Source of the DNA: a virus | DNA length: 45,633 nt | Reading direction: 5' to 3' (one strand) | IMG/VR virus record: IMGVR_UViG_3300012920_000073 | Span: 1-45,633 of that record | Shown here: positions 27,397 through 43,730 of the stretch, in pieces | How positions within the stretch are numbered: the first letter of the stretch is position 1 | How the letters are laid out: every line of letters starts with the position of its first letter | The notes under the pieces: generated by a model | What the model saw: the letters and a program-made list of their open reading frames with translations, nothing else | What the model was told of the DNA's origin: nothing | Databases searched by the model: none | Translations under genes and position numbers: made by a program

Positions 27397-30300
27397 ATGA
27401 GTTTTCATATTAATTCCGATAAAGAGAAGCTTAGAGGTGTAAACCCTAAGATCATCGGTGATAATGAAGCATCTATCAGAATTGGTACAGGAGCGGATGA
27501 ACGTGAAGTTCTCCGTACTGAACTAGATAGCGCAACTCAATTACCCAGAGTTGGTATCAACAGAACGGGACAAAGAGTTAACAATATTGAACTTGACACA
27601 GCTGGTTCTGGATTTACAGTAAACCCTGATGTTACTATTGGACCACCTAATGATCCTAATGGTGTCCAGGCTTTAGCGTCTGCCTTTACTTTTAATGGAA
27701 AAGTAACATCTATTGCTGTTAACAATCCTGGCAGTGGATATACGACTGTTCCAATTGTTACAATTTCTGGTGGTGGTGGTGCAGGTGCTACAGCAACAGC
27801 ATTCCTTGACTCTGTTGACTTTGAACTTGACATTAATGGTGCTATTAGAACATCTACGTCCATCATTTCTGATACGGCAAGAATTCTAAACCTGGATATT
27901 GACAACTTTGTTACTCCAGATGCTAACTTTAGAGCACCAAACTTAAAAACTTACGCAAATAATACAGGAACCCTATGGTCCCCTGGTGTTATTGTACAGA
28001 AAAATTCATATAGGTACTTCGGTGCCAATATGTATCAGGCAATGAACACTGGTCAAACTGGTGGTACTGATGAGGCACCAGAACATCTAGATGGCATTGT
28101 GCTATCTGGAGAAGTTCAGTTTAAGCATATTGGTTTCCGCGTAAACGATCCATCAGAATTCAGGTATAACGATACTGGAGATGCTGGTGTATTTCCTCGT
28201 TCTATCACACCTCTATTAGGTGACAGATCAGACAAAGTTGCAACTACAGAATACGTTCTCAACCTAGCAACGAACGACGTTGGTGGTCGTATCTATGTTT
28301 CTCAGCAAATTGGTTCTGACCTAAACGACGGTCGTTCTGCTGTAAACCCTGTTCGTACTATTAAGAAAGCGGCACAGTTGGCATGGGCAACTGTTGGTGT
28401 TAAAGAAACTATTATTTGTTCTGGTGGTGATTATGTAGAAGATAACCCAATCTCCCTACCACCCGATGCATCTGTTGTTGGTGATAACCTTCGTCTTGTA
28501 ATTATCAGACCTGCCAATCCTGGCAAACACATCTTTAAATTTGGTGATAAGAACTACGTTACTGGTGTAACATATCGTGACCAAATTGATTCCAATGGTG
28601 ACCCAGTTGCTACTTGGGACTTTGCTATGGTCTTTGACGACAAGCAAAGAATTATTATTGACCAAGAAGCTAATGGAGATTTTGGTACTTCATTCCCAAT
28701 TGGTCATCAGATCTTTGGACCACAAAAATTTAGTGTTAACTTCCAAAACAATACAGGTCTTTCTACATTAGTATCTGGTCTTATTGTAAAGGGTGTTAAC
28801 ACTGGTTCTAGAGCAAAAATTACCAGAGTAATTTTTGAAGCTCTTACTGGACCCAGTGCATATGTAAATGGTAAGATTGAAGTTGATCTACAGAGTGGTT
28901 CTTTTGTTGAGGGTGAAAGATTTGATTATATTACAAGTGCTTCACCAGGATCTGCATATACACAAACAATTACAGAACAAAGTGGTCCAAATGTTCTAAC
29001 ATTTACCACAGATCCAACAGTTGATATTCCACCTGGAACTGTTGTAGAACTACAAGCAACTCCTTCTTCTGGTCTTCCTTTCACTGGATTTTATGAGATT
29101 GCTTCTGTTGATGCTACACAATCTGCTAACAACATCTGGAAAGTATCATTCTTCCCAATCTTAGGAGCACCTAGTTGGAACGGTGATGGTGTTGGTGGTG
29201 GTTATGTACTGAATCAAGCGACTGCTGTTACTGAATCTTTTGATACTACTAAAATTGAATCCATCCGTGCTGAGGGTGAGGTTGTATCAGTAGATGAAGA
29301 GTATACCACAACTCTACCTATTTCTAGACTTGATTTCTCTCTACAGGGAGATCCAAGTATTGCAACTGGTGGTTTCCAATCTGAACAGTTTGGTAATGCA
29401 GAAGATCTTGGTGGTATTATATTTTACACTAACGCACTAGTTGGTAGAACTAATACACACGAATTTAAAGAAGGTCAAGAAATTTTAATTGAAGGTCTAC
29501 CAACAGCTGGTCCTGATTTATCTGTCCTCAACGGTAAGCAAAGAATCTACAAAGTTCTAGAAGATGCTGATGGTCGTTGCAGAAGATTTGTTATTCCAAA
29601 GAAATTACCTTCTATCACAGACGCAAATTTTGATCCAGGTCAATTTGCAGTTGTTAGAAACTTCAGTAAAGTAGTTACTTTATCACTACTAAACTCACCA
29701 AACACTTTCCCACTTTCTACACCTGTAGAAAGAAGATTCCAAGATGCTTGTGTATTCTTACGCAATAACAGAGAGTTTATTGCTGATGAAGTTGTAGGAA
29801 TTATCAATGATCAATTTAAGACAGATCATTATTCTGCATACAATATTTCTGGAAACTCTTTTGATATTTTCTTAGGTAATACAGAAGACGAACATACTTA
29901 TGTTTCTGGTGGTACTGTACAACTAGGTAGTGGTGGAACGATCTATAACATCACTAACTTTATTTACGACAATACTATTACTGGTGTTGCTACTATCACA
30001 ACAAATCTTCCAGTAGCAAATATTCAAGAAGATAGTATTGTTAAACTTGCAGATATTCTATTAAGTTGTGATGCTGGACAAAAAGTATATCCTTCATATA
30101 GTTCTCCAACAAACACAAACACAGGAAGTAATGGTGACGAGCAATGTCGTCAAGACGTTATTCACTTTGTCAATGCACTGGTAAGAGACCTTGAATTTGG
30201 ATCAAACCACAACATTATTGAAGCAGCAGAGAAGTATGTCATTGGTGGTGACATTGCATACATCAAAGACGAAATCATTCAAAACGTTCGTGCAATTGAG

Positions 30301-33300
30301 TATGCTAGAGAGCTCTGTATTTTCGCAATGCGAAATTGGAGAATTGGTGATGGAACTCCATCTGATGACATCTATGTCCCACGTTATTCTTCTGTAACAA
30401 GATATTTTGACGATACAGTAATTACAACAACAGCAGGAACTCCTGCTTGTGCTGATGTTAAAGCAGCAATTGATACTTTATCATTCTTATGGGTAGATGT
30501 AATTTCTAAGAACCAAAATGGAACATACTTAGATGCTGCATATCTAATCACTAGAAACAGGGATCTTATTGCACACCAAGCATTAGCAGATACTTTTGCA
30601 AACTATCCAACTTTTACACTTTCTAATACAAACGAAAGAAAGTGTATCAGAGATATCCGTATCGTCATCAACGGTCTCGTAAAAGACCTGGTATTTGGCG
30701 GTAACGAAGGTATTGTTGGTGTTGCTGATGCATACTTCACTGGAACTGTATTAACAGGTCTTCCAGAAGCACAGAGAGATGAGACTGTCTATGCTTTCCA
30801 GAGAGTGAAGCAGTATTGTATTGATGCAATGCGTAACTGGTCTGGTGGAGATGTTGATGAAGTAACTCCAAATGGATCTACTTACAACGCTTCATCTGGT
30901 GCTCTTACTGTAAGTTTCCCAGATCCACCTGTAGCACCTACTACTTCGGATAGAATTGCATTCAAAGAAGAAGCAATTACATATAGCTGCACATATAATA
31001 GTGTAACTGGAAATCATGCAAGTCCTCTCAGATTTGATTCTAACTGGGGTCAGGACTACGCTATTACTAATGTATCATCTTCTGGTGGTATTACTACTGT
31101 ATCTTGTACTGTTCCTAATGCAGGTGCTGCATCTGGTTCCGCACATACATTTGTAAGTGCTTTAGCAAATGGAACAATTCTAATTTATGATCCAGTAACT
31201 CCAACAGTTGATGTTCCAAGATTTACTAACTGGAATATTTTACTTTATAATAGTGTACCTCTTTGTGCTAATGTAGCTTCTACAATTACTACAGCGATGG
31301 ACCTCTTTGAGGACATCCTAGACGGAACTATTCCAGCTGGATCTGTAAACACAAATAACGGAACTCTATTTGATACTTCTCAAATTCGTACATTCCCTGA
31401 TAACTTCATTTACGATGCAAACAATCAGCGTGTGTCAATTCGTGGTGACTTTGATGAGTTCCCAATTATTGAAGCATCTCCATATACACAAAATGCTTCT
31501 GTTATCTCCTTCTTAGGTGGTGGCGGTGCTCTGATTGATGGATCTAAAGTTAAGCAACCTAACTGTCCTTTCCCTGGTCTTGAAATTGATGGAACCGCAT
31601 CATTCCCGAACCAAGGTAAATCCATGGTTGCTGCGGCATTCACGATTGTATCCTTTGGTGGCACAGGATATAAGGTTATTAACGATGGTTATACCCAGTT
31701 GGTTTCTGTCTTCGTTATTTTCTGTGCTGATGGTGTTCTTTGTGAATCTGGTGGTTATGCATCTATTACTAACTCTGCTACTAACTTCGGTCAATTTGCT
31801 TTACGTGGTACGGGATATAGAGAAGAGTGCTACTCATTTGACCAAGGTACAATCAGTAATGTTTCTTCAACACCTACTGGTAGAACTATTTTAACAGTTA
31901 GTGGTCTTGGAAGAGAACCACTAGAGCATTATGTTGGTAAAATTGATGGATTTAGAAATACCAATACTGATATTGAATACTTCATTGATGTAGTTGCTGG
32001 CGTCACTGTTGGTCCTCCTTTCTCTGCACAGTTAACATTTGACGATGGTACTGGTGGTGGAATGGATCTAACAGACATAAACACAGGAAATCCAGTATCT
32101 ACAAGTGCTCTTAGTGGAAAGACAATTAAATTACATAGACCATCTATTGTTAACTCTTCTTCCCACACTTGGGAATTTGCAGGTTCGGGTACTAATTACC
32201 TAGCACTACCTGAGAACGGTGGTACTAAGATTGAAGCATTTGAGCAAGTATCTGAGAACTACGGTCGTGTATATGTTTCTGGTACTGACGAACTTGGTGA
32301 CTTTAAAGTTGGTACATTTGCTAGAATTGAAAACAGAACTGGTGCTATTACCTTTACGGGTACAGTTACCATTTCTGAAGTTGAATTCTTGAAACTGAAA
32401 GGTGGTGACGTTGTTGTTACTGGATTTGATGCTTCCAATACACTTGGCGGTGCTAACTCTAGTGACTCCAAGCTACCTACCCAAAAAGCAGTTAGAGATT
32501 ACATCACTAACAACCTTGGACCTTACATCAACAAACCATATTCTACGAACGCTGTTCCTAGAGCACTGGTTGAACTTACTGATTCTGGTAAGATCTCTAT
32601 TGACCAAATTCCAGCACTCAGACCTTTCCAAGTTTACACTGTTGCAGATCAAGCAGAAAGAACTTCTATTGAGGGAGCACTTGCTGGTGACATTGCAATC
32701 CAACAGGATACATCTACATCATTCATTCTAAATCAAGATAACGACAGTCTATTCCTTGGATTCCAACCAGATCCTAATATTAGTATTAACCTTGGTGATA
32801 TTTACACTGGTAGTTTAACAACTGGTCGTATTCAAGCAACCGAATATAGAAAAGGTGTTGTTTTCCAAATCAACATCACTAATGGTGGTTCTGGATATGT
32901 AACTCCTCCAACAATTTCATTCTCTGGAGGTAATCCAGATCCTGGTGCAGTATCTGCAGCTGCTACATGCACAATTGCTAATGGCACTGTTGTTACCGTA
33001 ACTATTGAAACGTTTGGTGGATATCAAGGTGGTATTGGATACACTACTGCTCCTACAATTACATTTACTGCTCCTCCTGGTGCTGGAACACAAGCACAAG
33101 GAAGTGCTCTAATTGAAAGTAGAGTTTATGGTGATATTGTCAACAATATCAAGATTGAAGATACTGATACATTTAATGATAGCACATCACCGACTCCAGT
33201 CACAGTTAACATTAACAGAGTTGTAAACACATCTTCGTTTGACAATAATAACTGGGTATCTCTATCTTCTAACCAGATTGCTGCATCAGACATCACATCT

Positions 33301-36300
33301 GGTGTTATTGAAACAGATAGACTAGCATCTGGTGGTGCTGCAAACTCCTTTACCTTCCTCCGTGGTGATCAGAACTTTGCTCTAGCGATGCAATCTATCA
33401 AGGGTGCTGAAACTAGATACTTCGCCTCTCTTGCTGCTCAGTGCTCTATCGGATCATCTCAGATGATCTTTACGACAAACTCTGATGTTCTTATCGGACA
33501 TGAAGTTAAACAAACTGTCAACGGAGTTGCTGCAAACACAAACATTAATGGTGTTGTTACTTCGGCAGGTCTCACAACTATCTCTCTCAATAATCCAGTA
33601 ACACAAACAATTCCTCTTGGAACGATTATTGAATTTGAGCGTGGTGCTTCTCCTGTTACATTTGAATCTACATTCACACAAGGCGGATTTATTGATGACG
33701 TTATTATTTCAAATCCTGGATTAGGATTTACAAATGGTCAATATTTTGATGTAGAACTTTTAGGTGGTACTGGTACAGGATTAAAAGTAAATCTGGTTGT
33801 ATCTGGTAACTCAGTTACTGAAATTACTGTTACTGATGGTGGTACAGGATACAACGCAGACTTTACTGTTGTTACCGCTCCTGGTGTGATTGGTTCTGGT
33901 TCAGCTCTTGTTCTAGAAGCAAAAGTCTCCACAGTTCTTAGACAATATGCAAACGTTGCTATTGATGTTCAGAGAGCAACAGATCTAACAATTTCTGCTG
34001 ACCTCTTCGGTACAATTGGTGTTTCTAGATTTAAGAAATCTCAGTTTAATATTGGTACAGCAGGTAATGGTTCTATTGAACTTAAGACTGGTGCTGACAG
34101 TGGATTAGATGCTGACTTACTTGATGGTGTACAAGGTGCTTTCTATACAAATGCAACTAACCTAAGTTCTGGTACTCTCAGTCCAGATAGACTTGCTGGT
34201 ACATATAACATCAGTATTTCTAACCAGTCTGGTAGTACACTTAGAATTATCACTGGTACTAACAACCCATCTTCTTCTCCACTACCTAACTTCTTCTCCT
34301 CAGGTATTGTCTCTAACACTATTTTCAATAGTGCTAATGGATTGAATGATGGCGGTACAAGAAACATGGTCGTCACCTTTAGGCAGGGTGGTTCTGGTTT
34401 TGATACTGGATTTGGTGGTGTAAGACAACTTGCATTCACAGATAATGATAACATGTATCTCCGTGGTTCAGGCACGGGTGTTACATCTTTTGGTTCTTGG
34501 GCAAAAATCTGGACATCTCTAAATGATGGTCTTGATTCTGGTCTTGATGCTGACAGACTTGATAACAAACAAGGTGATTGGTATCAGAATGCACTTAACA
34601 TCAACTACGGTACATTATCTGATAATAGACTTCCTAGATTTATTAGTGCAACTAATTTCAGAGATCAAGTAACAGTTAAGGGATTCCTTGGTGATCCTAA
34701 GTTTAGAATTTACTTCTCTGGAGTAATTCTAGATACTTCTCCAACTGGCGTTTATACTCCTGGTAATCCAATCAAACTCTATAATGCTAATGCTCAGGCA
34801 GTTGCAGATTTTGTTATTGACTCGGTTACTGTTAATGATGATACTTCTGATAACTTTAATGATTTTACTATTCTAATTGGTAGACTTACTTCTGGTAACT
34901 TTACTGGTGCTATTACCGCTGGTACTGCTACCAATAGATTGCCATTTGATGATTTTACACTAGAAGATGGCAACACTGTAGATGTTGCTAAGTTGGAAAA
35001 TGATGGTGGGGTCGGTCTTATTAAGGTTGGTAGAGTTGACGGAACAGCTTCTACTCCTGCACTATTATTCAGATCTTCTCAAGTTGTACCAGGAATCAAC
35101 GCAGATGATCACTATACTGTAAAACTAGAAGCAAGTGGTGGTAATGCTACCGCTGGTTCTGGTACATTAAATGCTAGTGTTGCAAACGCAGATTCTCTTA
35201 CTATCAATGGTCAGATTGTTTGGAACGCTGGTAATATTCAGTTCAGTTCTTCTAACATTTCCAACTACGCAGTACAGCGTGATGGTTCTGGAAACTTCTC
35301 TGCTTCCACTATCACAGCATCTCTAACGGGTGCTGCATCACTTAACGTTCTGAAGACTGGTGATACCATGACAGGTACACTAGCAATTACTGGTGCTGGT
35401 TCTAACCTAACAGTCTCTGGTAACGCTGCTATTAGTGGAACTACAACGTTAACCGATGACCTGAATGTTTATTCGGGTGTTCTATTTGTTGATACTTCTG
35501 CTAACGAAGTTGGTATTAACGTAGGCACCAATCCACAGGCTGCTCTGCATCTTAAGGCAGATAGTGGACTCTTGATCCAAAGTGCTAGCAATGCTCCTTC
35601 TACTGGTGCAAGAATTAGATTCAGTGATAATCAATCTGGAAATTATACTCAGCAAGGTACTATCAGATATAATCATTCTGATGGCGCATCTCCAGGATCT
35701 GCTTATGGTGAATCTTTCTACGTTGAAGGCACAGAAACAATTCTTGCTTTCAAGGTTGCTGGAGACATTATTGCTTCCAGAAGAATTGGTATTAATAATG
35801 ATAACCCAACATTTGCTCTTGACGTTACAGGCAACGCAAGAATTCGTGATGGTCTAACGATTGACAATGCTTCTAACAACAGTGGTGCTCCAATTAACTT
35901 CCTTGGTTCTTCTAACCAGAGAAACTTTAGAGTTGGTAACCAGTTACTAGCAAACAATCTGTTCACTATCCAAGCATCTACTGCTGGTGGTGGTCAGTCT
36001 TGGAATTCAACTCCTGCATTCAGTATTGATGGTTCTTCCAACAGAGTTTCTATCAATACAACTGCAACTACTGGTGTTGATCCTTCTAATAATACCACTA
36101 GATCTTATAATCTCAACATTCAAGGAGATGTTAACTTTAATGGAACCTTGTTCCAAAACAACTCTGAATTTGTTACTTCTAGATGGACTGAATCTCCTAA
36201 TGGTAATGACATTTACAGAGCATCTAAAGTTGGTATTGGATTTACGAGTGCAAAGAATCCAGAGGAAGCATTAGAAGTAGAAGGAAACATTGAAGTTTCT

Positions 36301-36489
36301 GGAACACTAGAAGCAAACGGTGACGCACAGTGGTTAGATACATATGGAATTTTCAAGGCAAATAGAAATACTATTGATGAAGATATCACTATCCCACAAT
36401 CAACCAACTGTATGACCGCTGGACCAGTAACTATAAATAACAACAGGACAATTGTTATTTCTGATGGAGCTTCCTGGAGTATCGTATAA
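27397..36489 (+). CDS. Giant fibre-like tail protein with beta-helix (3030 aa)
   Basis: Domains in order: GxGY repeats (about 65-145); a pectin-lyase-like beta-helix start, GRIYVSQQIGSDLNDGRSA (about 297-390), with a DG-x-S...TIKKA pattern; two helical FGGN modules (778-981 and 1049-1148); a second beta-helix stretch, ISFLGGGG...GKSMVAAAFTIVSFGGTGY (about 1368-1480); a PTQKAVRDYI collar-like segment (about 1693); more GxGY repeats (about 1830-1910 and 2100-2180); two LDAD-x-LD segments (about 2236 and 2385), as in T4-type long fibres, with a pyocin-knob-like W-x-K-I-W between them; and a repeat-rich fibre shaft to the C-terminus. No transmembrane or signal sequence is seen. It is probably a large tail fibre or baseplate spike arm, perhaps serving several T4 fibre functions at once. 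The function is inferred from architecture. Confidence 0.8.
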   Translation: MSFHINSDKEKLRGVNPKIIGDNEASIRIGTGADEREVLRTELDSATQLPRVGINRTGQRVNNIELDTAGSGFTVNPDVTIGPPNDPNGVQALASAFTFNGKVTSIAVNNPGSGYTTVPIVTISGGGGAGATATAFLDSVDFELDINGAIRTSTSIISDTARILNLDIDNFVTPDANFRAPNLKTYANNTGTLWSPGVIVQKNSYRYFGANMYQAMNTGQTGGTDEAPEHLDGIVLSGEVQFKHIGFRVNDPSEFRYNDTGDAGVFPRSITPLLGDRSDKVATTEYVLNLATNDVGGRIYVSQQIGSDLNDGRSAVNPVRTIKKAAQLAWATVGVKETIICSGGDYVEDNPISLPPDASVVGDNLRLVIIRPANPGKHIFKFGDKNYVTGVTYRDQIDSNGDPVATWDFAMVFDDKQRIIIDQEANGDFGTSFPIGHQIFGPQKFSVNFQNNTGLSTLVSGLIVKGVNTGSRAKITRVIFEALTGPSAYVNGKIEVDLQSGSFVEGERFDYITSASPGSAYTQTITEQSGPNVLTFTTDPTVDIPPGTVVELQATPSSGLPFTGFYEIASVDATQSANNIWKVSFFPILGAPSWNGDGVGGGYVLNQATAVTESFDTTKIESIRAEGEVVSVDEEYTTTLPISRLDFSLQGDPSIATGGFQSEQFGNAEDLGGIIFYTNALVGRTNTHEFKEGQEILIEGLPTAGPDLSVLNGKQRIYKVLEDADGRCRRFVIPKKLPSITDANFDPGQFAVVRNFSKVVTLSLLNSPNTFPLSTPVERRFQDACVFLRNNREFIADEVVGIINDQFKTDHYSAYNISGNSFDIFLGNTEDEHTYVSGGTVQLGSGGTIYNITNFIYDNTITGVATITTNLPVANIQEDSIVKLADILLSCDAGQKVYPSYSSPTNTNTGSNGDEQCRQDVIHFVNALVRDLEFGSNHNIIEAAEKYVIGGDIAYIKDEIIQNVRAIEYARELCIFAMRNWRIGDGTPSDDIYVPRYSSVTRYFDDTVITTTAGTPACADVKAAIDTLSFLWVDVISKNQNGTYLDAAYLITRNRDLIAHQALADTFANYPTFTLSNTNERKCIRDIRIVINGLVKDLVFGGNEGIVGVADAYFTGTVLTGLPEAQRDETVYAFQRVKQYCIDAMRNWSGGDVDEVTPNGSTYNASSGALTVSFPDPPVAPTTSDRIAFKEEAITYSCTYNSVTGNHASPLRFDSNWGQDYAITNVSSSGGITTVSCTVPNAGAASGSAHTFVSALANGTILIYDPVTPTVDVPRFTNWNILLYNSVPLCANVASTITTAMDLFEDILDGTIPAGSVNTNNGTLFDTSQIRTFPDNFIYDANNQRVSIRGDFDEFPIIEASPYTQNASVISFLGGGGALIDGSKVKQPNCPFPGLEIDGTASFPNQGKSMVAAAFTIVSFGGTGYKVINDGYTQLVSVFVIFCADGVLCESGGYASITNSATNFGQFALRGTGYREECYSFDQGTISNVSSTPTGRTILTVSGLGREPLEHYVGKIDGFRNTNTDIEYFIDVVAGVTVGPPFSAQLTFDDGTGGGMDLTDINTGNPVSTSALSGKTIKLHRPSIVNSSSHTWEFAGSGTNYLALPENGGTKIEAFEQVSENYGRVYVSGTDELGDFKVGTFARIENRTGAITFTGTVTISEVEFLKLKGGDVVVTGFDASNTLGGANSSDSKLPTQKAVRDYITNNLGPYINKPYSTNAVPRALVELTDSGKISIDQIPALRPFQVYTVADQAERTSIEGALAGDIAIQQDTSTSFILNQDNDSLFLGFQPDPNISINLGDIYTGSLTTGRIQATEYRKGVVFQINITNGGSGYVTPPTISFSGGNPDPGAVSAAATCTIANGTVVTVTIETFGGYQGGIGYTTAPTITFTAPPGAGTQAQGSALIESRVYGDIVNNIKIEDTDTFNDSTSPTPVTVNINRVVNTSSFDNNNWVSLSSNQIAASDITSGVIETDRLASGGAANSFTFLRGDQNFALAMQSIKGAETRYFASLAAQCSIGSSQMIFTTNSDVLIGHEVKQTVNGVAANTNINGVVTSAGLTTISLNNPVTQTIPLGTIIEFERGASPVTFESTFTQGGFIDDVIISNPGLGFTNGQYFDVELLGGTGTGLKVNLVVSGNSVTEITVTDGGTGYNADFTVVTAPGVIGSGSALVLEAKVSTVLRQYANVAIDVQRATDLTISADLFGTIGVSRFKKSQFNIGTAGNGSIELKTGADSGLDADLLDGVQGAFYTNATNLSSGTLSPDRLAGTYNISISNQSGSTLRIITGTNNPSSSPLPNFFSSGIVSNTIFNSANGLNDGGTRNMVVTFRQGGSGFDTGFGGVRQLAFTDNDNMYLRGSGTGVTSFGSWAKIWTSLNDGLDSGLDADRLDNKQGDWYQNALNINYGTLSDNRLPRFISATNFRDQVTVKGFLGDPKFRIYFSGVILDTSPTGVYTPGNPIKLYNANAQAVADFVIDSVTVNDDTSDNFNDFTILIGRLTSGNFTGAITAGTATNRLPFDDFTLEDGNTVDVAKLENDGGVGLIKVGRVDGTASTPALLFRSSQVVPGINADDHYTVKLEASGGNATAGSGTLNASVANADSLTINGQIVWNAGNIQFSSSNISNYAVQRDGSGNFSASTITASLTGAASLNVLKTGDTMTGTLAITGAGSNLTVSGNAAISGTTTLTDDLNVYSGVLFVDTSANEVGINVGTNPQAALHLKADSGLLIQSASNAPSTGARIRFSDNQSGNYTQQGTIRYNHSDGASPGSAYGESFYVEGTETILAFKVAGDIIASRRIGINNDNPTFALDVTGNARIRDGLTIDNASNNSGAPINFLGSSNQRNFRVGNQLLANNLFTIQASTAGGGQSWNSTPAFSIDGSSNRVSINTTATTGVDPSNNTTRSYNLNIQGDVNFNGTLFQNNSEFVTSRWTESPNGNDIYRASKVGIGFTSAKNPEEALEVEGNIEVSGTLEANGDAQWLDTYGIFKANRNTIDEDITIPQSTNCMTAGPVTINNNRTIVISDGASWSIV
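29728..30840 (+). repeat. Two helical FGGN modules in the 3030-aa fibre-like protein
   Basis: Residues 778-981 and 1049-1148 share R-xx-F/L...NR-(E/D)-(F/L)-I-A, C-R/I-(Q/R)-D-I/V, a D-L-(E/V)-F-G-(S/G)-N core and end in AMRNW. The first copy is about 80 residues longer because of an inserted beta segment (about 29855-30060, HTYVSGGTVQ). A cysteine sub-module (TPACADV, 30439; VPLCANV, 31255) follows each. Confidence 0.75.
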
Positions 36490-37472
36490 TGAGTAGTTTA
36501 TCTGTAAAAGACATTTTAGGACTTGCATCCTACAATAACACAATTAGCATTCCAACTGGTAATAACCTAGAGGTTGCTGATAAGATTACTGTAGGAGAAT
36601 TAGTGATTCCAGTTTGGACATCTTCTACACGACCACCAAATCCTGCTGTAGGAAATGTTGGTTATAATTCTCAAGAAGGATTTCAAAAAATTGAATATTG
36701 GACTGGATCTGAATGGTTGGGTGTTGGAGAAACATCTTATCAAGACGGAATTACTCAAGGTCTTGTTCTTTGGTTAGATCCAAATAGACAGGGCGGACTA
36801 AATGGAAATATTGTTACTGATCACAGTAGCACTATGGGTGATGTTAACATTCAAAACAGAAGTTCTGACTGGACTATTCAAACAGAAACTTCTACTTCGT
36901 TGAAGTGTATTTTCAATAATAGTAATAGAACTAGCAGTCCTGGAATTAATGTTCCTATGAATAATGGTTGGAACAAGCAAGTTGCAACTATTGAAATGTG
37001 GATTCGTCCAGTTGGAGACTATACTGGTGGTCATGGTTGGTTTAATAATTCAGACGGTAACAGTTATACCAATAACGCCAACTGGTTCTGGTGGGGAACT
37101 TGGGATACTTCAAATTCTCACTATGCAAGATGGGGTAACTCTTCTACATGTTGTAATGACTTATCCTTTAGTGGTTTTCAAAGCACTTATACATTGAACC
37201 AATGGTTTCATTGGGCACTTACTTGGAATACAACTCAAGGTAGAGGAACGTTGTATAAGAATGGATCTGTTATCCAAACTAAAACTAATATTCCAACCAA
37301 CGTTACATCAACTAACCCAACAAATACTGGACAGATATTTAATGGTCATAGTAGAAGTGATAACATGCAATTCAAAGGATACTGTTCTCAGTACAGAATC
37401 TACAATAGAGAGTTGAGTGTTAGTGAAATCAATCAAAATTATACAACTTACGCTAGCGCACATAATCTATAA
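36489..37472 (+). CDS. LamG-like lectin adhesin, candidate receptor-binding protein
   Basis: The N-terminal 45 residues are a shaft-type start (NTISIPTGNNLEVADKITVG), followed by a VGYNSQEGFQKIEYWTGSEW docking-type unit (about 57-77). From about residue 90 the protein has the laminin-G/concanavalin-A-like (LamG_3) pattern: G-L-V-L-WLDP, then IEMWIRP, QWFHWALTWNTTQGRGTLYK and FKGYCSQYRIYNRELSVSEI at the end. This fold binds sugars or proteins and is widely used in phage tips and cell-surface proteins. The start codon overlaps the stop of the giant fibre gene by one base (TAATG), with GGAG about 10 bases upstream. It is probably a tip subunit that binds a surface glycan. The target is unknown. 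Confidence 0.8.
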   Translation: MSSLSVKDILGLASYNNTISIPTGNNLEVADKITVGELVIPVWTSSTRPPNPAVGNVGYNSQEGFQKIEYWTGSEWLGVGETSYQDGITQGLVLWLDPNRQGGLNGNIVTDHSSTMGDVNIQNRSSDWTIQTETSTSLKCIFNNSNRTSSPGINVPMNNGWNKQVATIEMWIRPVGDYTGGHGWFNNSDGNSYTNNANWFWWGTWDTSNSHYARWGNSSTCCNDLSFSGFQSTYTLNQWFHWALTWNTTQGRGTLYKNGSVIQTKTNIPTNVTSTNPTNTGQIFNGHSRSDNMQFKGYCSQYRIYNRELSVSEINQNYTTYASAHNL

Positions 37473-37474
37473 CC

Positions 37475-37774
37475 ATGGAAATGTCACAAGACAGGCAAAG
37501 ATGCCTGGAAACAAACAAGCTTCAAGTTCTCCAGAATAATCTCCCTAGATGGAGAGAGATTAGAAATAAAAAACTGGAAGAATCTGACATTGAATTCTTG
37601 AAAGCAATGGAAAATTATTTTGCTTCTCTGCAAGATAATAGACCAGAAGTTTCTAATTTAAAAAGTTTAGCACAGCACAGGCAACGTTTAAGAGATGTCA
37701 CTCAATTCAGAAATACTGATGTTGTTTCTGATGAAATTGAGATGATGGATTACTTACCTGAAATTTTACGATAA
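37475..37774 (+). CDS. Small tail-fibre chaperone-like protein (99 aa)
   Basis: The protein is charged and helical with no membrane segment. Its layout recalls small phage tail assembly chaperones, which have R-xx-(K/R)-L-xx-(S/T)-D-W, a spacer, and a (W/H)-xx-(Y/H)-R-Q-x-L-R-D motif; here RNKKLEESDIEFL (31-42) and AQHRQRLRDVTQF (66-78) match that spacing except that the Trp after Asp is replaced. The neighbouring genes are an adhesin before it and another after it, the usual place for such a chaperone. ATG 37475 is 2 bases after the LamG stop; a second ATG at 37481 is a possible start. The chaperone role is inferred. Confidence 0.6.
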   Translation: MEMSQDRQRCLETNKLQVLQNNLPRWREIRNKKLEESDIEFLKAMENYFASLQDNRPEVSNLKSLAQHRQRLRDVTQFRNTDVVSDEIEMMDYLPEILR

Positions 37775-37794: not shown

Positions 37795-38928
37795 ATGGCA
37801 TCTGAGATTAGGGTAGATAGAATAAAATCAACTGCTGGTGGTGCGGTTATTAACGCAACCATCAACAATGATGGATCTATTACTTTTGGCGGAAACGTTG
37901 ATATTACTGGAAACCTGTTGCAGAATGGGTCACCTTTTGCTGCTCTACCAGAGCAAATTCCAGCAGGACAAGAGGGAACTACTGCTGGTGCTACTCTAAA
38001 ATCAGATGGCACAAATGCATACTGGGAACTTATCGTTGATTTTGCTGACGGATTTGCAATTACCAGAGGTTATCCTGCTGCAGGATATCAAAGTGGTAAT
38101 GCTTGGAGAAATGTAAATCGTTGTCAACACTCAACATTCTCAATCGCAAACCTAGGAGATCTTATTGATCGCTCTGATGCTTATACTGCTGGTGCTCAAA
38201 ACACTGCAATGAAAGCGTATATTTACTGTACTGGTAATAACTGGAATACAGATAGTAATTATGTTTCTACTTTCAGTATGTCAACAGAGTCTAATACTGG
38301 TGCTAGCACATCAATGGCTACCAGTAGAAACAGAACTTCTATTATGAAGAGAGACTTCAGGTATGCATACGTTTGTGGAAACAACAATGACAGTCCAGAT
38401 AGATTTGATTTAGTAACAGAAGCTGTTGTAACCGTTGGAGGTTCTGGTGGTTCTGGTGGTCTCAATCCTGCTTGTGGTTATGGTGAAGAAAATGGTATGT
38501 ACAAGCAAGGCGGTAATGCATATCTATTCCAATGGGCAACTGAAAGTTGGACTAGTTGGGGATCAGCACCTGGAACAGATGGAACAAATAAAACCATGAG
38601 TTCCAGAAGAGGATTTTCTTACTGGAATGAAGCAGGTGGTTATCAAACTGGTAGTGCTATGACAAGAAGAGATATTAAGACAGGTAGTAATCAATCATCT
38701 GTTAGTAAACCAGGAGTTACGGGAGAAGAAACTTTCCACACTGGTGTTGATTATGGATTTATGAACGGAATGTATAATGGTGCTCAGAATAATACTGGCG
38801 GTTATTTTACATTCTCTACCCACACATTTAGTTTCCAGAGTTCACTAAACCGCCAGGGACCTGGTGGCACTGCTTCTGGTGCTGCTATGGAATATGGTAC
38901 ACTAGCAACTGGATACACAGGAGTATAA
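37795..38928 (+). CDS. Tail fibre or adhesin protein, repeat-rich (377 aa)
   Basis: The start, MASEIRVDRIKSTAGGAV, and the shaft-like segment SITFGGNVDITGNLLQNG (about 29-47) are of fibre type. The rest is a Gly, Ser, Asn and Trp rich beta region with an RGYPAAGYQSGNAWRNVNR stretch (about 90-108), SPDRFDL, SSRRGFSYW and SSLNRQGPGG. Such YxGG/AGY plus NRxxHS patterns occur in marine phage adhesins, where they may form a propeller-like head domain; I cannot assign a named fold. A poly-Gly-Ser linker (GGSGGSGG, about 214-222) separates two halves. It is probably a host-binding or tip protein. Strong AGGAG (38919-38923) within its end serves the next gene. Confidence 0.7.
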   Translation: MASEIRVDRIKSTAGGAVINATINNDGSITFGGNVDITGNLLQNGSPFAALPEQIPAGQEGTTAGATLKSDGTNAYWELIVDFADGFAITRGYPAAGYQSGNAWRNVNRCQHSTFSIANLGDLIDRSDAYTAGAQNTAMKAYIYCTGNNWNTDSNYVSTFSMSTESNTGASTSMATSRNRTSIMKRDFRYAYVCGNNNDSPDRFDLVTEAVVTVGGSGGSGGLNPACGYGEENGMYKQGGNAYLFQWATESWTSWGSAPGTDGTNKTMSSRRGFSYWNEAGGYQTGSAMTRRDIKTGSNQSSVSKPGVTGEETFHTGVDYGFMNGMYNGAQNNTGGYFTFSTHTFSFQSSLNRQGPGGTASGAAMEYGTLATGYTGV

Positions 38929-38932
38929 AAAA

Positions 38933-39685
38933 ATGAAGTATTTTATCTGTAAAAATCCAGACGTTGCAAGTCTAGTATCATACACACCAATTTCCACTAT
39001 TTTAGATTGGAATATATTCAGTCTAGATGATATGGACATCCGTGGTATCTGTAGTTTAAACAATCCAACTGAACTAACTAAAGATATTGCTGTCTTTGGA
39101 TTTAGAAGTTTTGGTGACGTTAGACAGTCAATTAAAGTTTCTGCTGTTGATCTGACAGAGAATGAAATTTTTGATCAAATTGAATATGAAAAGTATACTA
39201 CTATTGGTTCTAAAGTAGAAATTCCAGTAACTAAAAAAAGATATGATGTAATTCTCAGAGCAATGAAAATTGCTGCTAAGGTAATCATTGAAGATATTTA
39301 CAATGAAAGATATCTGGCACTTGACTCTAGTGTTAGTGACATTGAAAGAAAGTGTTGGGAATATTTTGTTGATGAATTAAACACAGAGAGATATAATTTC
39401 ATTACTCAAATTGCCAAAGCAAAAGGTATTAAAACAGAAGCATATATTCAAAATATTAAGTTGAAGAAATCACACTATGATTCTAGTGTAAAAGATCTTT
39501 ATACTAAGATGATAACGTTGAAAACAGAGTTCAATAATTGTACTACTGTAAGGCAACTAAATAGGTTATATGAGGATTACATGGGCATTCCGATGCCTCA
39601 ACAACAAGCGTTTGATGAAGGTAGAACTGAGACAAACGAAAGTGGTGTAACAAGAAAATCAGTAGTCCCTGGATTTAGGTTTTAA
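38933..39685 (+). CDS. Tail-fibre assembly chaperone-like protein (250 aa)
   Basis: Residues about 137-215 follow the layout of phage fibre-assembly chaperones: ERKCWEYFVDEL (138-149), QIAKAKGIKTEAYIQNI (159-175), and NNCTTVRQLNRLYED near 200. That layout in known proteins is E-x-x-W...E-A...L-x-x-IA-x-A-(R/K)-G-I...A-(T/C)-T-x-x-x-L. The N-terminal 130 residues have no family I recognise. The gene has a good ribosome binding site (AGGAG, 38919-38923) and begins 4 bases after the preceding adhesin, the usual order of adhesin then chaperone. It is probably soluble and cytoplasmic in the infected cell, helping the fibre fold. The assignment rests on pattern and position only. Confidence 0.6.
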   Translation: MKYFICKNPDVASLVSYTPISTILDWNIFSLDDMDIRGICSLNNPTELTKDIAVFGFRSFGDVRQSIKVSAVDLTENEIFDQIEYEKYTTIGSKVEIPVTKKRYDVILRAMKIAAKVIIEDIYNERYLALDSSVSDIERKCWEYFVDELNTERYNFITQIAKAKGIKTEAYIQNIKLKKSHYDSSVKDLYTKMITLKTEFNNCTTVRQLNRLYEDYMGIPMPQQQAFDEGRTETNESGVTRKSVVPGFRF

Positions 39686-39703
39686 TTAGTAGTTGATTTC
39701 ATT

Positions 39704-40444
39704 ATGCTTACAAACGAAGAAATATTTGGACATGCCAAGAAAGTTGCTATCGGCATGTCAAAAAATCAAATTGAAAATTATGTTGTAAGTTCTCATGTCA
39801 CTGGTGACAGACAACTCAAACAGGTGTTGCTTGAGATTGAAAATAGATCTCACCAACATGAGAAAATGCTTATTGATGAAAGACGTGGTGCTCTAAGGTT
39901 AAAGCAAACAAAGAAAGTTTTAGATGATGCCAAAGTAAATGGTGATCCATTTCTTATTGAAGAAGCACAAATTGAGTTTGATGATGCATCTCTAGATATG
40001 GATATGTGGTCAAGAAGAAAAGCACAATCAAACTATGAACTCAATGTGTTTATTGAATACATTAAGGAGCATGTAGATTCACAAGAAAAATTAGAAGAAT
40101 CATCTAGATGGGATGAGGATAAAGAAAGAAAGTATTGGATTGCTAGACTAGGAAAACAAGCAGCTCTAGACATTGTTGCAAACGGACGCATTGGTATTGG
40201 AAACATGGATTCCATTGCTATGATGAAGAAAGAAGATCAAATTGCAACTCTTGATGTTGCTTCCCAGTATTCTTGTTTACTTAAAGTTTCTATTGACAAG
40301 ATTCAAGGTAGAACAGAAAAACAATTCCAAGCGTATGCAGAATCTCCTGAAATTGATCTCCCAACATTCCATGGTGTTGAGAAAACTTTGAACGTACCTC
40401 TACTTGATGAAATTAATGAAAGATATCTTCAGTCTTCCAATTAA
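39704..40444 (+). CDS. Conserved phage protein of unknown function, coiled-coil rich (246 aa)
   Basis: The protein is strongly helical with charged heptad-like stretches (about 45-145, ENRSHQHEKMLIDERRGALR) and a more compact C-terminal half containing ERKYWIARLGKQAALDI, GRIGIGNMDSIAMM and EEDQIATL-like text (about 143-190). Proteins with a similar WIARLG-x-QAALDI...NMD segment occur in marine phages, but I know no function. The start at 39704 lacks a clear ribosome binding site. It overlaps the next gene by 29 bases or more. It may act with the downstream enzymes or be a scaffold-type protein. Confidence 0.6.
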   Translation: MLTNEEIFGHAKKVAIGMSKNQIENYVVSSHVTGDRQLKQVLLEIENRSHQHEKMLIDERRGALRLKQTKKVLDDAKVNGDPFLIEEAQIEFDDASLDMDMWSRRKAQSNYELNVFIEYIKEHVDSQEKLEESSRWDEDKERKYWIARLGKQAALDIVANGRIGIGNMDSIAMMKKEDQIATLDVASQYSCLLKVSIDKIQGRTEKQFQAYAESPEIDLPTFHGVEKTLNVPLLDEINERYLQSSN

Positions 40445-42113
40445 TCCAAAAGGAGATTCAAAGTTTACTAAGAATGTATTTGTCCCATTCTTAAAAAGAA
40501 ATAAACATTTAATTTATGACTTGTACTTCACCTGTCGTATTCCTCCTTTTAGTCAGGATGCGATGGGTGATATTTTTGAGAACGATCCAGTAAGAGGAAC
40601 TAGTATCAATGCTCTATGGATTTCTGAACAGTCTGGTATTCCTTTGTCTGCCACATTTAACAATATGTGGGTAAGACCAGATCAAAAAAATTTAGATATC
40701 TGGATTGAAAATTTCAAACCTTTGTATGATAAAGGTATTCGTATTGTAACCTTGCCTCATACAACATGGGTTTCTACGGGTCAAATTCAAAAAGAATTTC
40801 CAAAGTTGTTTATTAAGAATACAATTCTTCGTGAAGTGACACGAGCTAATGAAGTTGTTGCTGCAGCAAAAGCAGGATTTAACTATGTCAATCTAGACAG
40901 AGATTTGATGCGTGATCATGATGCTCTAAAAAGAATTAAAGATGCTAAAGATTATTGTAAGTCAATTGGCAAACCAGTAAAGATTTCTTTACTTGCAAAT
41001 GAAGGGTGTTGGGGTGGTTGTCCTATCATGCCTGAACATTACCAATTTAATTGCACTAGGTCTGGAGATGGACCACAATATTTCAATGATACTATCAGTA
41101 GAGTTTCTTGTTCTACATGGGAGTATGAAGACTCTTCTGCATCATTAAAAATGGCAAATCTTCCGCCATGGCGTGAGGATTGGGAAGAGTTTATTGATCT
41201 TGGAATTGATGTATTCAAGATGCATGGACGTGAAAGTATGATGCGTCTTAAAGAAAGTATGGATATTATTGATAAGTGGAATGATAACAAGAGTATTTTG
41301 TTTCCACAATTAGATCCATACATGAAAAATTTAAACATTAAAGATAAACCTATTGATGTTTGGAGAAAAAAAATTAAAACATGTAAGTTTGATTGCTGGG
41401 AATGTAACTATTGTGAGTCTGTTGTTGATGCACATATCAAAAAGCAAGACAGAGAACTTCATCCTTTAATTGATAAGTGCCTAACATCTATTAATAATGC
41501 TACAAAAAAAGAGTCAAAATACAATCACAATATAGAAGGTCTATCTTCTGATACAGTAAAACATTTTTTGAATAATCTTTGTTCATATGAAGATACAAGA
41601 TACTTAGAAGTTGGTGTCTATAATGGAAGCACATTCTGTGCTGCTATTCAAGGTAACGATGTAACAGCTTATGCATCAGACCATTGGGAAGATAAAAACA
41701 TCAAACCATACAGAGATGATATTCCTTGGAAAGGAAATGAAGGATCTCTTGATACCTTTATATCTAATGTCAAGAATATTTGGACAGACAATAGTGATAT
41801 TGTTGTAATGGAAGGTGATATTAGAGGAACTAGTGAAATTAATTTCAACAAAAATGTTAATACTATTTTCTATGATGGTGAGCATGATGCTGCGACACAG
41901 ACACAATGTTTAGAACATATTCTAAAATACACAGATGATGAGTTTGTGTTAGTTATTGATGATGCAAATTTCAAAGACGTGGTAGAATCTTCTAAAGATT
42001 TTATTGAGAAAAATAATCTCAAAATTTTATATGAAAGAATTTTGTTAACAGATGAGTTGGAAGATTCGTCTTCGTGGTGGAATGGAATTGTTGTATTTGT
42101 ATTAAAAAAATAA
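40416..42113 (+). CDS. TIM-barrel/U32-like and methyltransferase fusion protein
   Basis: Residues 1-340 look like a peptidase-U32-type TIM barrel: a KISLLANEGCWGGCP motif with Cys198, Cys202, Cys213 and Cys232, plus a second cluster Cys323-x3-Cys327-x2-Cys330-x2-Cys333 near the join. In U32 enzymes such as UbiU/UbiV four Cys bind an iron-sulphur cluster. Residues about 380-565 are a class I SAM-dependent methyltransferase of the Methyltransf_24 type: EVGVYNGST (398-406, motif I), FYDGEHD (485-491), and VIDDANF (513-519). The start is uncertain: ATG 40416 is preferred; ATG 40407 and TTG 40404 are in frame upstream. It overlaps the preceding gene and shares one base with the next (TAATG), so translation is probably coupled. 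The substrate is unknown; virion fibres, host RNA or a sugar are possibilities. Confidence 0.65.
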   Translation: MKDIFSLPINPKGDSKFTKNVFVPFLKRNKHLIYDLYFTCRIPPFSQDAMGDIFENDPVRGTSINALWISEQSGIPLSATFNNMWVRPDQKNLDIWIENFKPLYDKGIRIVTLPHTTWVSTGQIQKEFPKLFIKNTILREVTRANEVVAAAKAGFNYVNLDRDLMRDHDALKRIKDAKDYCKSIGKPVKISLLANEGCWGGCPIMPEHYQFNCTRSGDGPQYFNDTISRVSCSTWEYEDSSASLKMANLPPWREDWEEFIDLGIDVFKMHGRESMMRLKESMDIIDKWNDNKSILFPQLDPYMKNLNIKDKPIDVWRKKIKTCKFDCWECNYCESVVDAHIKKQDRELHPLIDKCLTSINNATKKESKYNHNIEGLSSDTVKHFLNNLCSYEDTRYLEVGVYNGSTFCAAIQGNDVTAYASDHWEDKNIKPYRDDIPWKGNEGSLDTFISNVKNIWTDNSDIVVMEGDIRGTSEINFNKNVNTIFYDGEHDAATQTQCLEHILKYTDDEFVLVIDDANFKDVVESSKDFIEKNNLKILYERILLTDELEDSSSWWNGIVVFVLKK

Positions 42114-42763
42114 TGGAACTATTTGATATTTTTCCCAATGCGGTATGTAGAGAAATGTATGAAGATCATGTATCTCTCAAAAAAATTGTTATTCCAATGA
42201 TAGATGACAAACCATTAGAAACCAATGGCATGTCAGAAAAACTCTTTCATTTAGATAATCAAAGAGGAAAATCTTTTTTGCATAGGAATGGTTTAGAACC
42301 ATTTAAAGAATGGTTAGAAGAACAGTGCTCAAAATTTGTTAGATCTCTTGGATATGTCTTAGAAGAAAAAATGGTAGTAACCGATAGTTGGTTAAATATA
42401 TGCAACAAAGGTGGAAGTCAATATCCTCACTTTCACACCAATTCATACATATCAGGAACGTACTACTTAAATTTTAAAAATGGTCATGCGCCATTGATGT
42501 TTAGACATAGTGATAATTCAACACATTCATCACGTCCAGCTATTATATTAGAACAAGACACATCAAATCCAGGAAAATATAATTCTGATGTATTGGTTTA
42601 TCCAAATGAAGGTGAACTTCTTCTTTGGCAATCAAATCTCAGTCATGGATATCAAAAAAATGAGTTAGATTATAGAATTAGTATATCTATGAATTTTATG
42701 CCATCGCTTGTGGGAAACGATAAATACTCTTACAGAGTAATATCATCCCAAAGAACGGAGTAA
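42113..42763 (+). CDS. 2-oxoglutarate/Fe(II)-dependent oxygenase
   Basis: The protein (216 aa) matches the 2OG-FeII_Oxy_5 layout: SWLNICNKGGSQYPHFHTNS (about 93-111) with His106 and His108 as candidate metal ligands, then an SGTYYLNF strand, PNEGELLLWQSNLSHGY with distal His178, and YRISISMNF with Arg188 for 2-oxoglutarate. Members hydroxylate proteins or small molecules and are frequent in marine T4-like phages. The true start is ATG 42113, which overlaps the preceding stop (TAATG); an upstream in-frame extension to 42074 has no support. The substrate is not known. Its place between fibre-related genes suggests a fibre or host-surface target, an inference. Confidence 0.82.
   Translation: MELFDIFPNAVCREMYEDHVSLKKIVIPMIDDKPLETNGMSEKLFHLDNQRGKSFLHRNGLEPFKEWLEEQCSKFVRSLGYVLEEKMVVTDSWLNICNKGGSQYPHFHTNSYISGTYYLNFKNGHAPLMFRHSDNSTHSSRPAIILEQDTSNPGKYNSDVLVYPNEGELLLWQSNLSHGYQKNELDYRISISMNFMPSLVGNDKYSYRVISSQRTE
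42719..42726 (+). promoter_or_regulatory. Possible late promoter inside the oxygenase 3' end
   Basis: GATAAATACT, with the same downstream CT as the strong box at 13124 (TATAAATACT), lies 46 bases before the fibrinogen-like adhesin ATG. It encodes N-D-K-Y in the oxygenase, so chance is possible. Confidence 0.4.
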
Positions 42764-42764
42764 C

Positions 42765-43730
42765 ATGGGTCAGTTAAACGTAAACCTAGGAAACATCAAT
42801 AATGTTAAACTCCAAGCATACAATGGAGTTGACAACTATCCAACTGGTCTTGGTTCTACTGAGGCAGGATATTTAATCTTTGATAGTGCAAAGAACACTC
42901 TAGCATTCTGGTCTGGATCTGAGTGGAGACAGGCGCTATCTTCTGGTAATGAGGATGGTCTTTCCCCTGCATCTGCAATTACAAACTTTGCTGATTGGTT
43001 CCTTTCATCTCCAAGTTCTGGTGAATACTGGATCAAACCTTCTGGTTATGGTGGAGCAGCAGAACAAGTATTTGTTGACATTGGTGGAGTTGGAACATAT
43101 ACTGGAATTACTAATGATAATGGTATATGGGTTAGAATTAGATATGATGCGTCTTACTATTCACGCTCTAATGCATGGAAAGGACAATCTGGATTGACAA
43201 ACCCAGCTAATCAATCTACTACAGCATACTCTGGCAATTTTGGATTTGAGCAGTCTCAAGCATTTATCAATGCTTTACTATCACAGAGCTTAGAAGTAAG
43301 ACAAGTCTTTGAGTCTTGGGGTTATGGTTCTGTAGGTTGGACTTATCAAGGAAATAATGCATACATGGAAGGTATGGGATTTGATGGTACAAACTACACC
43401 AGATGGAGTGGTCAAGGAGGAACACACACTGGTGTTAGTGGTGGAAGACTATCTGGTATGTCTCATAGTATCAGTAGTATCAATGGTCCATGGAATAATC
43501 CAACTGGTAACAATACTGACGCTACTGACCAAAATGATAGCGTTTGGCGTTATGGTCGTTTCTACTTCCGATGGACTGGAGGAACTGACAAAAAACCACT
43601 ACCAATCAAAGGTGTTTACAACGCTGACGTTGACGGCGGAAGTGAGCAAAGATACTTCCCATTCAGAGATGCTGCTGGTGGATGGTCGGATCAAGGAGAA
43701 AGCAATACTTACATTAAAGTATATGGATAA
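42765..43730 (+). CDS. Fibrinogen-like adhesin, candidate receptor-binding protein
   Basis: The N-terminus (MGQLNVNLGNINNVKLQAYN) is of shaft type, followed by an AGYLIFDSAKNTLAFWSGSE docking-type unit (about 34-53) that resembles the one in the LamG adhesin. Residues 84-150 carry a fibrinogen-C-like start: SSGEYWIKPSGYGGAAEQVF, D-I-G-G, and GIWVRIRYDASYY. The C-terminal half is Gly and Trp rich (SGGRLSGMSHSIS, VWRYGRFYFRWTG). The start is supported by GGAG at 42757-42760. Fibrinogen-like domains bind sugars or acetylated groups and act as recognition tips; here the protein is probably a fibre tip that reads the host surface. The target cannot be stated. Confidence 0.75.
   Translation: MGQLNVNLGNINNVKLQAYNGVDNYPTGLGSTEAGYLIFDSAKNTLAFWSGSEWRQALSSGNEDGLSPASAITNFADWFLSSPSSGEYWIKPSGYGGAAEQVFVDIGGVGTYTGITNDNGIWVRIRYDASYYSRSNAWKGQSGLTNPANQSTTAYSGNFGFEQSQAFINALLSQSLEVRQVFESWGYGSVGWTYQGNNAYMEGMGFDGTNYTRWSGQGGTHTGVSGGRLSGMSHSISSINGPWNNPTGNNTDATDQNDSVWRYGRFYFRWTGGTDKKPLPIKGVYNADVDGGSEQRYFPFRDAAGGWSDQGESNTYIKVYG

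Follow-up and report, generated by a model that had tools for sequence, protein, structure and literature searches.

We propose, with a probability of roughly 60%, that the locus described here is a module for the tailoring of a tail adhesin, which suggests that cyanophages chemically modify their own host-binding adhesin, here the candidate substrate. The observations behind this proposal are the gene order, the co-inheritance, the domain families, the in-frame fusion of a GC353-like (GC353L) domain to a GT4 glycosyltransferase and a recurrent oxygenase. The window, meaning the whole stretch of 45,633 nucleotides that was analysed (IMG/VR record IMGVR_UViG_3300012920_000073), is the tail region of a T4-like ocean cyanobacterial virus (cyanophage), with the gp8 baseplate wedge gene upstream and the gp13/gp14 neck genes downstream. 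Its features are collected in Table 1, where the GC numbers are those of T4-like gene clusters in reference-genome annotations.

Table 1. Features of the tail region, in window positions.
Feature	Position	Strand	Evidence
Fibre gene	27397-36489		
Flanking LamG-domain adhesin, outside the co-inherited block	36489-37472	+	PF13385 1e-11
Gene originally called chaperone-like	37475-37774		weak match to PF16778, E=0.011
GC351 (T4-GC351), repeat-bearing adhesin, candidate substrate	37795-38928	+	phrog_1417 3.5e-74
GC352, conserved protein, function unassigned, module member	38933-39685	+	phrog_1604 1.5e-36
GC353, helical protein, candidate adaptor or chaperone	39704-40444	+	phrog_1409 5.8e-63
GC353/GC354 overlap, 29 bp	40416-40444	+	read from sequence
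GC354, whole gene	40416-42113	+	phrog_1458 3e-233
GC354 N-terminal domain: TIM barrel, 8 invariant Cys, U32-like	40416-41447	+	
GC354 C-terminal domain: putative O-methyltransferase (Methyltransf_24)	41448-42113	+	PF13578, O-methyltransferase fold matches
TAATG stop-start junction, GC354/oxygenase	42111-42115	+	read from sequence
2OG-Fe(II)-type oxygenase, exchangeable between phages	42113-42763	+	PF13759 1.4e-16, TIGR02466
Flanking adhesin-like protein, relative of S-CAM4 Fibrinogen_C protein	42765-43730	+	

The three genes from GC353 to the oxygenase lie on the plus strand exactly as the original prediction had them, with the same overlap and the same stop-start junction. Their order was confirmed, and the unit proved too small, since the genes for GC351 and GC352 belong to it as well. 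Of the flanks it had described, the LamG adhesin stands, and the fibrinogen-like one does so through a relative in S-CAM4 that contains Fibrinogen_C (2e-6), the product itself having no match in the Pfam search; for the gene called chaperone-like the match is weak. The GC353, GC354 and oxygenase genes are not chance reading frames, because all three match profiles (phrog_1409, phrog_1458 and PF13759) and dN/dS is about 0.06-0.27 in the pairs measured. GC354 could start at the ATG at 40407 or at 40416, and the alignment favours the latter, which gives the 29-bp overlap. An overlap of 29-65 bp is kept throughout the clades, with two exceptions: one clade has a gap of about 210 bp, and in S-ShM2 GC354 lies apart, about 6 kb from GC353. 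Within the window the same bases (40420-40444) encode the conserved LQSS C-terminus of GC353 and the conserved FSLPIN of GC354; this LQSS end is missing where the two genes do not overlap.

The four genes GC351, GC352, GC353 and GC354 (37795-42113) travel together. A search of INPHARED turned up 123 records for each of GC351, GC353 and GC354, with an identical organism tally and no occurrence outside cyanophages; for comparison, gp13 is present in about 463 cyanophage records. From the equal counts and tallies we infer that one and the same set of records carries all three genes; these records reduce to roughly a dozen lineages and include cultured phages such as P-HM2, Syn19, S-ShM2, S-CAM4 and S-RIM2. 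The order 351-352-353-354 is near-invariant in 80 IMG/VR loci, so that the adhesin, GC352, GC353 and GC354 form one co-inherited module when co-occurrence and order are followed through related phages. In one set of 17 non-redundant loci, Mantel correlations between the distances of module members reached r=0.92-0.96 (0.92-0.93 for GC352 against GC351, GC353 and GC354) but only 0.24-0.35 against gp13; the block is therefore co-inherited and swapped relative to the neck gene. GC351, GC353 and GC354 were not found in Sf-CH1b, whose gp13 is 95% identical, and this phage retains an oxygenase in the slot despite the missing module.

Because the GC354 loci lie in tail regions, the chief competitors of a functional unit are operon convenience and phylogenetic inertia. 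Unrelated late genes could have gathered in a recombination hot spot between the fibre and neck genes, as the variable content of the slot across phages would allow. The contrast between the module and gp13 correlations, the conserved overlaps and the recurrence of different oxygenase types in one coupled position all speak against such a gathering, which we regard as the least probable of the explanations considered.

GC351 is called 'sericin 1 precursor-like' in reference genomes. It had no match in the Pfam search and resembles Kelch proteins weakly (hhalign probability 4.5%), and it is probably a tail-tip adhesin, possibly a Kelch-like one.

GC354 has a more conserved N-terminal domain (residues 1-344, mean pairwise identity 67%, against 43% in the methyltransferase part) and eight invariant cysteines (181, 198, 202, 232, 323, 327, 330 and 333). 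Structure models were built with the window and IMG/VR sequences only; the AlphaFold2 model of GC354 has a mean pLDDT of 76, with the cysteine loop poorly predicted. The modelled barrel matches TIM barrels, among them a solved U32 protein (Mk0906; 5d88, E=1.3e-5, TM 0.59 by target). PDB profile searches with GC354 and with the N-terminal domain alone returned nothing significant. The label 'U32-like' given at the outset thus holds at the level of the predicted fold, and its sequence support is weak: the cut-off of Peptidase U32 (PF01136) was not reached, with a match in one of 13 members (E=0.028), and hhalign probabilities against four E. coli U32 proteins were 12-33%. Single U32 proteins score 13.7-28.0 against GC354, compared with 13.7-16.3 for MetF, PykF and FbaA and 27.2 for the best of 80 shuffles. 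GIDVFKMHGRE of GC354 aligns with GVHSLKIEGR at the U32 FK(I)xGR signature, these single-protein scores being near that best shuffle. The cysteine spacing of the Fe-S site in TrhP/UbiU is absent from GC354, the invariant positions differing from 170, 177, 193 and 197 of TrhP. Sequence and model together point to a weak kinship of the N-terminal domain with U32, favoured over the three other TIM barrels. The only cellular relatives of GC354 are two contigs in metagenome bins (Dehalococcoidia and Euryarchaeota) with N-terminal domains 67-68% identical, and these look like misbinned phage DNA.

The C-terminal domain scores 29.7 bits with Methyltransf_24 (PF13578), above the cut-off of 26.3, and its model matches O-methyltransferases including TrmR (8k1f). 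By analogy, GC354 might modify nucleic acid, a host or phage tRNA, in the manner of TrhP, a U32 hydroxylase, followed by TrmR on the wobble uridine. Both fold matches would fit, and the U32 enzymes RlhA and TrhP hydroxylate tRNA and rRNA (PMC6599085). Many other O-methyltransferases match equally, the U32 kinship is weak and the gene for GC354 is linked to that of an adhesin within the tail region, so we consider a tRNA substrate quite unlikely. TrhP and TrmR resemble GC354 in pairing a U32-type protein with an O-methyltransferase in sequence (tRNA ho5U34), both folds being like its domains; they are, however, separate proteins acting on tRNA, whereas GC354 is one fused, adhesin-tied protein with another cysteine spacing.

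The window oxygenase scores 61.1 bits with PF13759 (cut-off 27) and 69.6 with TIGR02466 (cut-off 62.5). Its family has structural-genomics relatives (3bvc and 2rg4) and an invariant HxH...H...R, the textbook facial triad being HxD/E...H plus an Arg for 2OG. At 80 of 84 loci the gene directly after GC354 is of oxygenase type, in most cases with an overlap of 1-44 bp; by non-redundant clade the count is 18 of 22, ten of them by a Pfam oxygenase family, four by the 'denV' reassignment described below and four by DUF6445, whose link to the oxygenase superfamily is weak. In L031 and L037 an adhesin comes next instead of an oxygenase. At least five types occupy the slot (the window PF13759 type, other PF13759 members, PF13640, 'denV'-type and DUF6445), two of them reclassified in this analysis; the oxygenase is exchangeable between phages and not a fixed partner of the module. 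As it is replaced by other types, and as no oxygenase was found near the module in P-HM2, the single fixed pathway of hydroxylation followed by methylation that had been envisaged is unsupported, and a fixed hydroxylase-methylase pair was rejected.

The cyanophage gene annotated as denV, that is DNA endonuclease V (T4-GC100, phrog_274; L083:10692-11189 and L086:10695-11204), had no match in the Pfam DenV search and carries an invariant HxD...H...R, and phrog_274 shares matching proteins with 2OG families. Judged from these PHROG cross-matches and the motif, it looks like a 2OG-type oxygenase; direct hhalign against the 188-aa oxygenases, with shallow alignments, did not succeed. Runs of consecutive oxygenase-like genes adjoin the module in L043 (9671-13880, including an apparent SpeD) and L084 (12756-15432), several with weak Pfam support, and in L033 (10324-11121) a 4Fe-4S ferredoxin-like gene stands between two oxygenases beside the module. 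In Sf-CH3 (L090:16531-21971) the same slot, flanked by adhesins and gp13, contains a tryptophan halogenase along with several genes of oxygenase-like type.

The model of GC353 is all-helical (pLDDT 85). Its fold had no significant match in the PDB and matches phage proteins, including weakly one from S-SKS1; in a viral fold library the best match outside cyanophages was a protein of RP12. No GC353 match was found in PaBG, Sf-CH1b, S-RIM44 or Sf-CH3. GC353 and GC353L are remote homologs (HMM 3.3e-6; hhalign 3.8e-5, probability 71% at the invariant core), and the core they have in common is EYW...R...Q...D...G...GN. In S-SKS1 Kelch proteins stand on either side of the GC353-like gene, and an oxygenase and a sulfotransferase accompany it. 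In AG-345-L05 the domain forms the rear part of an in-frame fusion with a GT4 glycosyltransferase, and adhesins of the Kelch and LamG kinds, oxygenases and sulfotransferases surround it. A scan of IMG/VR gave 197 relatives, of which 80 were kept and reduced to 31 non-redundant loci; neighbours were labelled by phmmer, using AG-345-L05 seeds whose own identity had been checked with Pfam. A Kelch adhesin adjoins in 29 of the 31, GT4 is present in 30 (fused in frame to GC353L in 21), a sulfotransferase in 23 and an oxygenase in all 31, as the next gene in 27, and no GC354 match was found in these loci. Loci L105 and L106-L185, large and from mostly uncultured phages, interleave Kelch adhesins with the GT4-GC353L fusion and also carry a second putative transferase, sulfotransferases, and P4H and DUF6445-type genes.

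The helical GC353 family thus has two unrelated enzyme partners, both beside adhesins and oxygenases, and adhesin modification is therefore indicated; since GC353L accompanies Kelch adhesins together with glycosyltransferase, sulfotransferase and oxygenase genes, the adhesin itself is the favoured target of modification. Of the substrates named in the original prediction, the fibre is accordingly preferred to a host glycan or nucleic acid, given the module and the GC353L genes beside other adhesins with other enzymes. It could be argued that GC352 and GC353 are only assembly chaperones of the adhesin, and that GC354 and the oxygenases have another target: a small molecule, the surface of the host or its metabolism (2-oxoglutarate and nitrogen status, for instance). 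Oxygenases are indeed scattered elsewhere in these cyanophage genomes, S-SCSM1 carrying 24 of the 2OG-Fe(II) type (PMC9602691), and the literature reads them as metabolic, proposing that they affect the 2-oxoglutarate and nitrogen metabolism of the host (PMC3037559, PMC9602691). GC354 is nevertheless co-inherited with the adhesin as tightly as GC353, and beside Kelch adhesins the GC353-like domain occurs in fusion with a glycosyltransferase, which makes this division of roles rather unlikely.

For adhesin tailoring we infer the following scheme, in its substrate, order of steps, adaptor and catalytic activities alike. GC351 would be a repeat-bearing adhesin carried with its own maturation set. 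GC353, with GC352, would hold or present the newly made adhesin and couple it to the modifying enzyme. GC354 would act on adhesin residues, its Cys-rich TIM-barrel domain carrying out a redox step and its C-terminal domain O-methylating a hydroxyl, and the 2OG-type oxygenase, translated right after it, would add hydroxyls. Residues would thus be hydroxylated and then capped with methyl, sugar or sulfate. Both the cap and the oxygenase would be exchangeable: methyl here, sugar and sulfate in the loci with GC353L, glycosyltransferase and sulfotransferase, and possibly halogen in Sf-CH3.

Hydroxylation followed by capping of a viral fibre protein has a parallel in Mimivirus L230, a collagen hydroxylase-glycosyltransferase; it shares the logic proposed here and differs in its collagen substrate, its eukaryotic virus and its unrelated gene set. 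In mycobacteriophages, phage enzymes modify their own virion proteins by glycosylation (Freeman et al. 2023, cited in PMC12619734). The likeness lies in phage-encoded enzymes acting on the phage's own virion proteins, which in our case is read from genes; as that system is presented there, glycosyltransferases act on the C-termini of capsid and tail-tube proteins, whereas here a TIM-barrel/methyltransferase and oxygenases are linked to an adhesin, and no glycosyltransferase was seen in the window cassette. The published auxiliary-metabolic oxygenases belong to the same superfamily as those described here, and virion modification is not what was proposed for them. No description of this module as a system was found in the literature searched, most subscription papers being outside our reach.

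More tentatively, the GC353 family may be a general, mostly uncultured phage system, in which an adaptor recruits interchangeable tailoring enzymes to new tail adhesins: a glycosyltransferase or a TIM-barrel/methyltransferase, plus oxygenases and sulfotransferases. For the oxygenases beside adhesins our proposal offers an alternative substrate, the phage's own host-binding protein, with GC351 as the first candidate, and since cultured phages carry the module it is open to mass spectrometry. If it is true, host range would depend on adhesin chemistry that is invisible in the sequence alone, and if the general GC353 system exists, phages would diversify their host-binding proteins in chemistry as well as in sequence.
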